Assembly (NCBI GenBank): GCA_903858815.1
Contig: CAIOKE010000150.1
Location: forward strand, 1 to 64,000
Direction of reading: 5' to 3'
Origin: an uncultured Planctomycetaceae bacterium
Lineage (GTDB): Bacteria; Planctomycetota; Planctomycetia; Planctomycetales; Planctomycetaceae
Length of the DNA: 64,000 bases
The translations under genes and the position numbers were made by a program. Every line of letters begins with the position of its first letter. Position 1 is the first letter of the stretch. The notes beneath the pieces are model-generated. The model saw only the letters and a list, made by a program, of their open reading frames with translations. It made no database searches and had not been told where the DNA came from. Shown in pieces: positions 58,061-60,758 of the stretch.

Positions 58061-58819
58061 ATGTCATTTGCATCACTCAACGGACGTCGAATTCTGATTA
58101 CAGGCGCATCTTCCGGAATCGGTCGAGAGATTGCTCTGGAGTGCTTTCGGGCGGGTGCGTCCGTCATCCTGAACTGTCGTCGCTCAGTCCAGCAGGCTCG
58201 GCAGGTCGCCACTGAGATAATCCAACAGGGTGGCAGCGCTGAGGTGCTGGCGGCCGATGTCAGCAGTCCGCAGGATCGCGATCGACTTGTCCAGCAGGTC
58301 TGCGAAGGGGGCATTCCTGATGCTCTCGTCAACAGCGCAGGCGCCGATACGCTGACAACCGAACTGCGTCAGGCGACGTTCTCAGAGAAACTGACAGCCC
58401 TGCTGCGAACGGATGTGGAAGGCACCATCGAACTGTCGCGAACACTGGGAGTTCGTATGCGGGAAGCGGGGCGGGGAGTCATTCTGACAATCGGCTGGGA
58501 TCAGTCCGATCGTGGTATGGAGGGCGACAGTGGCGAGCTGTTTGCTGCAGCCAAGAATGCCGTGATGGGATTTTCTCGCTCACTGGCACTTAGCCTGGCG
58601 CCGGCAGTCCGAGTCAACTGTATTGCTCCCGGCTGGATCCGCACAGCATGGGGCGAAACCGCCAGCGACTACTGGCAGCAGCGAGTGCTGAGAGAGACAC
58701 CTTTGCAGCGCTGGGGTGAACCACGGGATATCGCCTGCATGGCCCGGTTTCTGCTCAGCGATGAAGCTGGCTGGATCACGGGCCAGGTGCTGAACGTCAA
58801 TGGTGGTGCGGTTCGCTGA
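58061..58819 (+). CDS. Short-chain dehydrogenase/reductase with Phe in place of the catalytic Tyr
   Basis: A 252-residue classical SDR fold. The cofactor site is RILITGASSGIGREIALECF (TGxxxGIG) and an LNCRRS-type second strand suggesting NADP. NAG-like motif appears as LVNSAGADTL. At the active site the YxxxK motif reads F161-A-A-A-K165 (ELFAAAKNAVMGFSRSLALS), and the usual Ser strand reads ILTIGWDQSDRG. Later motifs are normal (VNCIAPGWIRTAWGE and WITGQVLNVNGGAVR). Either it uses a different residue or it is inactive as a reductase. The next gene starts 26 bp downstream, so they are probably co-transcribed. Confidence 0.8.
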   Translation: MSFASLNGRRILITGASSGIGREIALECFRAGASVILNCRRSVQQARQVATEIIQQGGSAEVLAADVSSPQDRDRLVQQVCEGGIPDALVNSAGADTLTTELRQATFSEKLTALLRTDVEGTIELSRTLGVRMREAGRGVILTIGWDQSDRGMEGDSGELFAAAKNAVMGFSRSLALSLAPAVRVNCIAPGWIRTAWGETASDYWQQRVLRETPLQRWGEPRDIACMARFLLSDEAGWITGQVLNVNGGAVR

Positions 58820-58845
58820 CGGTCTGAGAAGAGGGGGCCGATCAA

Positions 58846-60258
58846 GTGACTGAGAGAACGCTGCTGTTTGTCACGGGGCGACTGGCTGAGGGCAGCCTGC
58901 GGGATGTGCTGCAGACTGTGGCCCCTCGAGCTGGATTTCAGTTTGAAATCGTGGTCCCGGGCATTCAGGTTGCGGCTCTTGTGCACACCGCCCTGCTGAA
59001 ACGCCGACTGATCGTTCCTGATCATATTGAAAAAGTGATTGTGCCGGGCTGGTGTCAGGGTGATCTGGCAGAGCTTGAGGCTCAGTTTGGGCGTCCCTTT
59101 GAACGGGGGCCGAAAGATCTGCACGACCTGCCTGAATACTTCGGAGTGGGTCGTCGCAGGCCGGCGGACCTCAGTCGCTGGTCGATTGAAATCCTGGCCG
59201 AAATCAATCATGCGCCGTTGCTTCCTCTGGATCAGATTCTGCAGCAGGCCGCTGCGCTGCAGGCTGCTGGTGCTGATCTGATTGATGTCGGAGGTATCCC
59301 GGGCCAGGTCTGCCCGCAGATTGGTGAGATCGTCAGAGAACTGAAGAACGCCGGACACCGCGTCTCCATCGACAGTTTTGAACAGAGTGAAGTTGAAGCG
59401 GCAGTCGCTGCAGGTGCCGAGTTGATTCTGAGCTGCAATCAGTCCAATCTGGACTGGGTCAGTCGGCTTGGAGTGGAGGTTGTGGCTGTTCCGGAAACTC
59501 CGCAGGATTCCCAGTCCCTTGATCGACTGGCTGAACAGCTGACAGATCGTCAGTGTCGTTTTCGACTGGATCCAATCCTTGAACCTGTAGGTATGGGTTT
59601 CGCGGCATCGCTGGAACGTTATCTTCAGACACGGCGTCGACATCCTGATGCAGCAATGATGATGGGGGTGGGAAACGTCTCTGAGCTTACGGAAGTTGAT
59701 TCTGCCGGGGTGAATATGCTGCTGGCTGCGATCTGTGAGGAGTTGGGGATTCAGAGCGTTCTGACCACGCAGGTCATCAACTGGTGTCGCACGGCCGTAG
59801 CGGAACTTGCGGCTGCGCGGCGGCTGGTTCATTACGCCGTCAGCGCCGGAACGATCCCCAAAAACCTTGATGGATCGCTGACCATGCTGAGAGACGGGCG
59901 TCTCAGACGCACGTCACAGGCTGCACTTGATCAGCTGGCACAGTCACTGACGGATCCGAATTATCGAATTTTCGCCGAGCAGGGGCAGTTGCACCTGATG
60001 AATTCCGAGGGCAGCTGGACTGGCAGTAGTGCATTCGCAATCTTTGAACAGGCACTGCTGACTGCCCGCAGAAAGCGAACTCAGGACTCGATCACTGCTG
60101 AGCACGCCTTTTATCTTGGATATGAACTTGCCCGGGCTGAGGTCGCATTGCTGCTGGGAAAACAGTATGTTCAGGATTCTCCGATGAGTTTCGGAGTCGC
60201 TGGCCAGTGGGGGGCATCCTCAGCGGTGCAGCACCATCTGCCCGACCCCACTGCGTAA
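58846..60258 (+). CDS. Dihydropteroate-synthase-like protein (DUF6513)
   Basis: A 470-residue protein from GTG 58846, preceded by GAGGGGG about nine bases upstream. The N-terminal 110 residues (TLLFVTGRLAEGSLRDVLQT, VVPGIQVAALVHTALLKRRL, VIVPGWCQGDLAELE) form the DUF6513 part. A DHPS-like TIM-barrel half follows (LSRWSIEILAEINHAPLLPL, AAGADLIDVGGIPGQ, GHRVSIDSFEQSEVEAAVAA), lacking the DVGGxSTRPG loop of true FolP. A C-terminal extension has EHAFYLGYELARAEVALLLG. Related archaeal and planctomycete proteins are associated with tetrahydromethanopterin-type C1 cofactors; that role is inference here. Confidence 0.75.
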   Translation: MTERTLLFVTGRLAEGSLRDVLQTVAPRAGFQFEIVVPGIQVAALVHTALLKRRLIVPDHIEKVIVPGWCQGDLAELEAQFGRPFERGPKDLHDLPEYFGVGRRRPADLSRWSIEILAEINHAPLLPLDQILQQAAALQAAGADLIDVGGIPGQVCPQIGEIVRELKNAGHRVSIDSFEQSEVEAAVAAGAELILSCNQSNLDWVSRLGVEVVAVPETPQDSQSLDRLAEQLTDRQCRFRLDPILEPVGMGFAASLERYLQTRRRHPDAAMMMGVGNVSELTEVDSAGVNMLLAAICEELGIQSVLTTQVINWCRTAVAELAAARRLVHYAVSAGTIPKNLDGSLTMLRDGRLRRTSQAALDQLAQSLTDPNYRIFAEQGQLHLMNSEGSWTGSSAFAIFEQALLTARRKRTQDSITAEHAFYLGYELARAEVALLLGKQYVQDSPMSFGVAGQWGASSAVQHHLPDPTA

Positions 60259-60305: not shown

Positions 60306-60758
60306 ATGCTGAAATCACAACTGATCCACCCTCGTATTTCCGAAGTCATCGCTCGGGCAGGCCACAGTTCCCGAATCCTGATTGCTGATGGCAATTATCC
60401 GGCATCATCAGCAATCGGGCCGCGAGCTGAGCTGGTCAGCCTGAACCTGGCTCCCGGACTGGTCACAGTTGCCCAGGTACTGCAGGTACTGCTGACTGCA
60501 ATTCCCGTGGAGGCTGTGAATACCATGGGCATGCCGGAAGATGACCCTTACCGCCTCCCGCACGATCCTCCGGTATGGAATCAGTATCGTTCCATCCTTG
60601 CTGATGCGGGACTGTCAATTCCTCTGCAGCCGATTTCCCGCTGGGATTTCTATGATGCTGTCGATTCACGCGACCATGTGCTGACTATTCAGACGGGTGA
60701 TCAGGCCTTGTGGGCAAATCTGCTGCTGACTGTCGGTGTCCGGCAGGCGGGTCAGTAA
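60306..60758 (+). CDS. RbsD/FucU family mutarotase
   Basis: A 150-residue protein from ATG 60306; the frame is open back to 60207 but that part overlaps the preceding gene's end. Family members interconvert cyclic forms of ribose or fucose. Family segments are LIHPRISEVIARAGHSSRIL (with the catalytic-type His near residue 18), IADGNYPA and VNTMGMPEDDPYRLP. The C-terminal TIQTGDQALWANLLLTVGV has the Gly/Asp turn of the sugar site. Which sugar is used cannot be told. It sits inside a co-directional run between the DHPS-like and SpoU genes. Confidence 0.75.
   Translation: MLKSQLIHPRISEVIARAGHSSRILIADGNYPASSAIGPRAELVSLNLAPGLVTVAQVLQVLLTAIPVEAVNTMGMPEDDPYRLPHDPPVWNQYRSILADAGLSIPLQPISRWDFYDAVDSRDHVLTIQTGDQALWANLLLTVGVRQAGQ

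Follow-up and report, generated by a model that had tools for sequence, protein, structure and literature searches.

A short-chain dehydrogenase lacking the catalytic tyrosine in the planctomycete methanopterin gene set: a candidate dihydromethanopterin reductase

Introduction

The biosynthesis of tetrahydromethanopterin (H4MPT) ends in the reduction of a dihydropterin, and in Methylobacterium an NADPH-dependent dihydromethanopterin reductase, DmrA, has been described (passages of PMC6193120). DmrA is a relative of dihydrofolate reductase (DHFR), whereas DmrB/AfpA, like the archaeal DmrX, is flavin-dependent, being an FMN flavoprotein. Pterins are also reduced by PTR1, FolM and PruA, which have the short-chain dehydrogenase/reductase (SDR) fold and for which the motifs TGX3RXG and YX3K are given as hallmarks in part of a review (PMC13259868). 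In PTR1 the first reduction depends on Asp, Tyr and Lys, while in the second, from the dihydro to the tetrahydro form, the proton comes from water (in the portions of PMC8996148 and PMC1618733 available). Here we describe an SDR gene in a stretch of 64,000 nucleotides (positions 1 to 64,000 of contig CAIOKE010000150.1, assembly GCA_903858815.1) from an uncultured Planctomycetaceae bacterium, hereafter the window, which is followed by a gene for a DUF6513 protein resembling DHPS. Linkage and co-occurrence place this SDR in the planctomycete methanopterin gene set.

The original prediction saw in these genes an SDR without its catalytic Tyr, coupled to a DHPS-like protein starting 26 bases later, and proposed either a pterin-related role or a non-catalytic partnership. 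The spacing is exact:

58061-58819, plus strand: SDR-family open reading frame of 252 aa, ATG start, TGA stop; candidate dihydromethanopterin reductase
58820-58845, plus strand: spacer of exactly 26 bases between the SDR and DUF6513 genes
58846-60258, plus strand: DUF6513/DHPS-like open reading frame of 470 aa, GTG start, TAA stop

A role in tetrahydromethanopterin synthesis, a pathway that the original prediction did not name, is the main result of this work.

Results

Co-occurrence with the methanopterin pathway

Presence and absence were compared within the Planctomycetota in two samples that share genomes, one of 118 genomes from the phylum (at least 90% complete) and one of 198 genomes from the class (at least 95% complete). 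Fifteen of the 118 phylum genomes hold an SDR orthologue (at least 343 bits, all other best matches scoring 186 bits or less), and beta-RFAP synthase (TIGR00144, at least 75 bits) is found in exactly the same 15 and in none of the 103 genomes that lack the SDR (Fisher p of about 3e-19, a guide only, as kinship is ignored). Fragments matching TIGR00144 at 26 and 22 bits (E 1.1e-5 and 3.0e-4) in G115 and G052 were left uncounted. DUF6513 occurs in the 15 SDR-bearing genomes and in one other, G033, which is without an SDR orthologue and without mch and in which beta-RFAP synthase went undetected. The DUF6513 gene of G033 (L170, 8736-10196) is divergent, has a pabB/trpE-type gene after it and gives no Pterin_bind match at E 0.001.

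In the class sample the SDR passes E 1e-70 in 188 of the 198 genomes; G170, whose weaker match carries the motif SWDQ...LF..K, brings the count to 189. Of the ten class genomes first called negative, six were rechecked at a weaker limit, namely G170, G174, G200, G291, G295 and G033; the calls for G251, G264, G271 and G305 are those of the first limit. In 187 class genomes TIGR00144 finds a match at E 0.001 or better, the weakest at E 8.7e-7, so that neither sample would change its counts under a common limit of E 1e-6. Both genes are present in 185 class genomes and both are missing from seven, so that 192 of the 198 are concordant and six discordant. The double negatives (G033, G174, G251, G264, G271, G291 and G305) belong to two families and all lack mch. 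Four genomes have the SDR without a TIGR00144 match, namely G011, which has mch, and G189, G267 and G269, which do not. In G173 the beta-RFAP synthase frame (G173:C1:4190588-4191391) contains one in-frame TGA.

Gene neighbourhood and fusion to folK

The neighbourhood was surveyed in 115 distinct loci, 93 of which extend at least 3 kb and 81 at least 6 kb downstream of the SDR. A co-directional DHPS-like gene lies downstream within 4 kb in 47 of the 93, in 46 of these cases within 1 kb. A gene for pterin-4a-carbinolamine dehydratase (PCD) is found downstream in 17 of the 93 loci, 15 of which also have the DHPS-like gene; one example is L164 9834-10175 (PF01329, 92.4 bits). Among the 81 longer loci, 26 have a pabB/trpE-type gene downstream, 15 a pabA/trpG-type gene and four mptG (tblastn with a single query). 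In at least 39 genomes no more than 10 kb separates the SDR from a TIGR00144 match.

One cluster is that of L171 in G028, where SDR, DHPS-like, pabB/trpE-type, pabA/trpG-type, DUF447 and mptG genes follow one another over about 6 kb. Here mptG matches TIGR00144 at 93.5 bits, below the cut-off of the model. The naming of the pab genes relies on context: the L171 pabB/trpE-type protein scores slightly higher against anthranilate synthase I (358.9 bits) than against the PabB models, reaching 327.8 of the 328.4 bits set for TIGR00553 pabB, and passes none of their cut-offs, and its pabA/trpG-type partner passes a model that joins trpG and pabA (211.3 bits, cut-off 121.05). DUF447 genes are present both in this planctomycete cluster (L171 8750-9331) and in a proteobacterial one (L197 8398-9006).

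In four of the 115 loci, all from one planctomycete family (L053, L060, L061 and L062), the SDR is fused to folK, with the HPPK/FolK domain N-terminal and the SDR C-terminal. Two of the fusion frames are:

L060 7532-8767: FolK-SDR fusion open reading frame; TIGR01498 folK, 137.6 bits
L062 7390-8793: FolK-SDR fusion open reading frame; TIGR01498 folK, 146.7 bits; PF01288, 138.7 bits

For L053 and L061 the fusion rests on a co-directional tblastn match to folK just upstream of the SDR and on open frames of 538 and 414 aa. The DHPS-like neighbour in about half of the loci, the four folK fusions and the shared distribution with beta-RFAP synthase support the pterin-related role that had been proposed.

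An orthologue family that has exchanged the catalytic residues

The features of the SDR that concern its active site, taken from the translation, are as follows:

58100-58123, plus strand: cofactor motif TGASSGIG, residues 14-21
58346-58348, plus strand: Asp96, after the (N)NAG motif
58412-58414, plus strand: Asp118, in the column of the Asn of the SDR tetrad
58493-58504, plus strand: GWDQ motif, residues 145-148, with Trp146 opposite the column of the catalytic Ser
58541-58543, plus strand: Phe161, codon TTT, at the position of the catalytic Tyr
58553-58555, plus strand: Lys165 of (Y)xxxK, retained

The original reading of F161-A-A-A-K165 in place of YxxxK holds, as does the remark that the Ser strand is atypical, since it reads LTIGWDQ. 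The exchange of Tyr is not the sole change, the Asn and Ser columns of the tetrad holding Asp118 and Trp146. The protein has the Rossmann SDR fold and the TGxxxGxG cofactor motif, with FxxxK for YxxxK and, at the end of strand 5, Trp146 in place of the catalytic Ser of classical enzymes. Its Pfam family is adh_short_C2 (148.8 bits). An AlphaFold2 model built with 36 aligned orthologues gives a complete SDR fold at a mean pLDDT of 93.7, as had been expected, and in a structure search its best matches are FabG-type SDRs at Z of about 34 (2uvd_A, Z 34.5, 34% identity). Such a search speaks for the fold only, and no weight attaches to the absence of pteridine reductases from its best 50 rows. Strand 2 ends in NCRR, which has no acidic residue, and by the SDR rules for this position NADPH is the suggested cofactor.

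The window genome was compared with 39 relatives, and 36 of these 40 genomes hold one clearly separate best match to the SDR (at least 46% identity, other listed matches reaching 42% or less); no orthologue was found in G012, G015 and G016, which are 79 to 89% complete, or in G033, which is 99% complete. With named loci (the best 80 of 412 relatives) and with more distant families, 124 loci gave 106 distinct proteins, and the orthologues range throughout the class and into some families beyond it. The earlier view that simple decay is unlikely gains from this range, and decay of the SDR can be set aside, as orthologues have been kept over the class and those further families. Asp118, Gly145, Trp146, Asp147 and Lys165 are found in all 106 proteins, as are Gly15, Gly19 and Gly21 of the cofactor motif, and Gln148 and Asp96 in 105 each. 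Phe161 is likewise found in 105, the lone exception being a Tyr in L167 of G134. A further set of eleven orthologues, none of them among the 106 and two of them partial, has Phe161, Trp146, Asp147 and Lys165 throughout, and the nine that cover the glycine motif keep its three glycines; exchanges occur at Gly145 (Ser in two), Gln148 (Ala in two), Asp118 (Glu in one, Asp in the other 10) and Asp96 (Asn in one of the ten that cover it, Asp in the other nine). Over the 117 distinct orthologues Lys165, Trp146 and Asp147 are thus invariant and Phe161 is found in 116.

Paralogous SDRs from the searched genomes, by comparison, have Tyr at position 161 in 20 of 20 cases and Asn in the Asp118 column in 19 of 20. 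When 36 orthologues and these 20 paralogues are placed in one tree, the orthologues fall on one side of a branch of length 1.47 with support of 100/100; the same tree of 56 sequences gives the Tyr-bearing G134 protein no firm place among the orthologues. The original prediction had proposed that function has been redirected if Phe161 is kept wherever the DUF6513 gene is adjacent, and that Tyr-bearing orthologues in the same neighbourhood would refute this. The orthologue alignment does not tie Phe161 to adjacency, the residue being kept equally where the SDR stands alone (34 of the 81 longer loci have none of the neighbours sought). The refuting case exists once, in G134, all other orthologues having Phe. 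Because Phe is kept in the absence of an adjacent DUF6513 gene, and because the one Tyr orthologue has DUF6513 nearby, Phe161 is a trait of the orthologue family and not a marker of DUF6513 partnership; its use as a sign of such partnership is rejected.

The DHPS-like partner

The partner gene carries a DUF6513 domain (PF20123) at 70.1 bits, well above the gathering score of 23.9, which confirms its earlier naming; the other Pfam matches are weak (PterinBD-DUF4346, PF14251, 32.8 bits; Pterin_bind, PF00809, 26.7 bits against a cut-off of 25.5). In positions of the window they are:

58861-59115, plus strand: DUF6513 domain, residues 6-90 (Pfam)
59227-59484, plus strand: Pterin_bind match, residues 128-213 (Pfam)
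60013-60177, plus strand: PterinBD-DUF4346 match, residues 390-444 (Pfam)

It also matches TIGR00284, the model of an archaeal DHPS-like protein, at 175 bits, below the curated cut-off of 256.65, the best stretch covering profile positions 152-497 at E 2.1e-51. The protein is presumed to be the enzyme that couples the pterin to RFAP. An RbsD/FucU-family gene (60306-60758) follows it in the window; the same order is seen in nine loci of the same genus and in none of the compared loci from other genera.

Other candidate reductases

The window genome has no DHFR_1 protein and no AfpA match, and its only RibD_C protein is RibD, so that it holds no recognised DmrA or DmrB. No genome of the phylum sample exceeds the cut-off of the AfpA/DmrB model. 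Weak matches to it (E 0.001) are found in 63 of the 118, all to part of the profile and of at most 33.9 bits, including four of the 15 SDR-bearing genomes (G021, G047, G083 and G136, at 24.5 to 30.6 bits). RibD_C finds nothing but RibD itself in eight of the 15. DHFR_1 exceeds its cut-off in 46 of the 118 genomes, that is in 5 of the 15 SDR-bearing and 41 of the 103 remaining genomes (Fisher p 0.78, kinship again ignored), and the presence of the SDR therefore does not track the loss of DHFR.

Four proteobacterial plasmid loci with DUF6513, out of 36 records, were surveyed over 7 kb to either side. The gene directly upstream of DUF6513, the place taken by the SDR in the window, encodes a DmrB-like flavoprotein in three of the four (Phyllobacterium, Paraburkholderia and Thiodictyon), two of the four having been chosen after the listing had already named a flavoprotein there. 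These flavoproteins score 84-90 bits against the AfpA model and 93 to 98 bits against TIGR02700, 'dihydromethanopterin reductase (acceptor)', under the cut-off of both. Among the 15 records listed with a DUF6513 match, three name a flavoprotein and five a kinase, and Azospirillum and Paraburkholderia are the commonest genera of the plasmid matches. No SDR is annotated within 7 kb of DUF6513 in the four loci, and one could lie elsewhere.

Comparison with described reductases

The SDR would share its reaction with both described types. It differs from DmrB/AfpA in having the SDR fold and the Pfam families that go with it, and from DmrA, with which it would also share the NADPH donor, in not being a DHFR relative; 10 of the 15 SDR-bearing genomes have no DHFR_1 match. 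With the pteridine reductases it has the fold in common, and E. coli FolM aligns with it over 228 columns at 25% identity. It has Gly19 at the Arg of TGX3RXG in 106 of 106 orthologues, Phe161 at the Tyr of YX3K, and the GWDQ motif together with a loop before position 161 that exceeds those of E. coli FabG and FolM by two residues; against the NCBIfam pteridine reductase model NF006598 it scores 134.7 bits, short of the cut-off of 288. FabG-type classical SDRs have the same fold and are its nearest relatives in sequence, yet Tyr, Ser and Asn of their tetrad are all replaced in the window protein and its pathway context is a different one. The partner gene, in turn, resembles the archaeal DHPS-like protein below the level at which the model would name it.

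Discussion

A probable reductase of methanopterin synthesis

Conservation, linkage, fusion, co-occurrence and, in the window genome, the lack of recognised alternatives make it very probable that the SDR is an NAD(P)H-dependent reductase of H4MPT biosynthesis in planctomycetes. We predict, with the scales standing level, that it reduces 7,8-dihydromethanopterin, in the dephospho form, to the tetrahydro form in the last step. Three things point to that step: Afp is not recognised in planctomycete genomes, according to the accessible portion of Chistoserdova 2016 (PMC5020050), the gene has a positional match in the DmrB of part of the Proteobacteria, and the SDR fold is known for pterin reduction.

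The exact step, the cofactor and the chemistry that follows are what we infer from sequence, model and analogy. The SDR would replace both DmrA and DmrB, acting on a substrate made by its DUF6513 neighbour, which would join dihydropterin pyrophosphate and beta-RFAP. Lys165 and the Rossmann site would position the nicotinamide, and above the nicotinamide the pterin would lie in a pocket that the conserved Trp-rich motifs GWDQ, PGW-T-W and W..R have rebuilt. Hydride would pass to C6, and N5 would take its proton from water, perhaps activated by Asp147, Asp118 or Asp96. The Tyr hydroxyl would be dispensable because water protonates N5, as it does in the second half-reaction of PTR1, and an enzyme that needs this second reaction alone could therefore lose the Tyr. 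An exact equivalence of Asp147 with the Asp of PTR1 and FolM had also been considered and was dropped, three MAFFT modes and the two hhalign alignments all having put Trp146 in that column.

Several observations weigh against this account. Many planctomycete TIGR00144 matches, that of the window genome (75 bits) among them, lie under the cut-off of 113.5, which is passed in 10 of the 118 phylum genomes and 69 of the 198 class genomes. None of the pterin neighbours sought is present in 34 of the 81 longer loci. G189, G267 and G269 (loci L215, L216 and L217) retain the SDR without mch or a detected beta-RFAP synthase, with GWDA in place of GWDQ in G189 and G267 and with a pabB/trpE-type gene directly after the SDR in G189 and G269; because these three genomes have the SDR without the pathway, it can be kept for something else, perhaps in folate synthesis. 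Conversely, G200 and G295 have beta-RFAP synthase and mch and no detected SDR, and may be assembly gaps or real exceptions, the SDR being present in genus mates of G295 and family mates of G200. The five SDR-bearing genomes with a DHFR_1 protein hold another enzyme that could do the step, and in Azospirillum the place upstream of DUF6513 is taken by an MfnE-like kinase (L198 6367-7008) and not by DmrB. The Tyr161 orthologue of G134 stands in a pterin neighbourhood of the order SDR-PCD-DHPS-like-pabB.

The chemistry, too, meets objections. The catalytically inactive mutant of PruA was reportedly a Tyr to Phe exchange. Both hallmarks of the pteridine reductases are absent from the window protein, and in the alignment with E. 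coli FabG and FolM it is Trp146 that stands opposite the Ser/Asp column, Asp147 lying one residue further on. In PTR1 mutation of the triad costs significant activity (in the part of PMC8996148 available), and PruA, which reduces dihydropterins only, nevertheless keeps YX3K, a mutant with catalytically inactive PruA having the phenotype of a deletion (both from passages of the review PMC13259868). The retention of Tyr in PruA and the phenotype of its inactive mutant weaken the case for a Tyr-free reduction from dihydro to tetrahydro form.

Alternative explanations

Methanopterin contains deoxyribitol, and the SDR might act in H4MPT synthesis at a different point, where the ribofuranosyl ring derived from RFAP is opened and reduced to this group, with hydride passing to a quinone-methide-like carbon by analogy with the pinoresinol/lariciresinol reductases. 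We know of no enzyme assigned to the deoxyribitol-forming step, and deoxyribitol is not named among the listed literature matches on reduction in methanopterin biosynthesis. Linkage and co-occurrence would fit such a step equally, and the missing Tyr acid would suit it. The step is, however, expected in all makers of H4MPT, whereas no SDR is annotated within 7 kb of DUF6513 in the four proteobacterial loci that were opened, and the flavoprotein of the dihydromethanopterin-reductase type upstream of DUF6513 in three of them points to pterin reduction; we regard this alternative as unlikely. A pseudoenzyme that binds pterins and serves the DHPS-like enzyme as partner or scaffold, close to the non-catalytic partner of the original prediction, would accord with the change of Tyr, Ser and Asn of the tetrad and with the nearby DHPS-like gene that 47 of the 93 loci have downstream. 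Against it stand Lys165, kept in 117 of 117 orthologues, and the glycine motif, kept in all 106 and in nine more; in addition, 46 of the 93 loci have no DHPS-like neighbour, four are fused to folK instead, and G033 has the DHPS-like gene without the SDR. Because the cofactor motif and Lys165 are kept, and because the SDR survives in the three genomes without the pathway, this partnership is not favoured and seems unlikely.

The SDR could also replace FolA as a dihydrofolate or dihydropteroate reductase, its link with methanopterin arising from shared pterin and p-aminobenzoate precursors. The ten SDR-bearing genomes without DHFR_1, the folK fusions, and the three genomes that keep the SDR without mch, two of them with a pabB/trpE-type gene next to it, would all agree with this. 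The distribution over the 118 genomes disfavours it as the principal explanation, the SDR following beta-RFAP synthase and not the absence of DHFR_1, and we consider replacement of FolA unlikely. That the protein is an ordinary NADP-dependent carbonyl reductase, in which Phe161 is neutral and DUF6513 adjacent by chance, accords with its nearest solved relatives, which are FabG-type ketoacyl reductases, and with the one Tyr orthologue; it is very improbable indeed, given that 116 of the 117 orthologues have Phe161 and all 20 paralogues Tyr, and given the linkage, fusion and co-occurrence. A dihydromethanopterin reductase remains our preferred assignment.

Implications

A literature search, made largely without subscription papers, gave no mention of DUF6513 and no match that joins planctomycetes, methanopterin and short-chain dehydrogenase. 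Among the listed matches on dihydromethanopterin and tetrahydromethanopterin no SDR of this kind appears in titles or abstract openings, and a search linking DUF447, PCD, DHPS-like proteins and methanopterin returned an off-topic match only. The SDR may, as a tentative proposal that we place a little short of even, be a third and unrelated bacterial dihydromethanopterin reductase, an SDR without the Tyr, Ser and Asn of the tetrad that would work only from dihydro- to tetrahydropterin with Lys, the GWDQ loop and conserved acids, filling the planctomycete gap and the place that DmrB takes in some Proteobacteria. The candidate is quickly testable because a flavoprotein reductase is already known to rescue Methylobacterium extorquens with dmrA knocked out (as reported in passages of PMC6193120).

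How bacteria acquired the archaeal-type C1 pathway is debated, and planctomycetes figure in that debate; a conserved, co-occurring and pathway-linked SDR is a concrete candidate for the Afp gap in these organisms (the gap as set out in the accessible text of PMC5020050). If the proposal is true, an SDR reduces the C=N bond of a pterin without the textbook catalytic Tyr, which would bear both on the PTR1-type mechanism and on automated annotation, where such proteins are labelled pseudoenzymes or ketoreductases.

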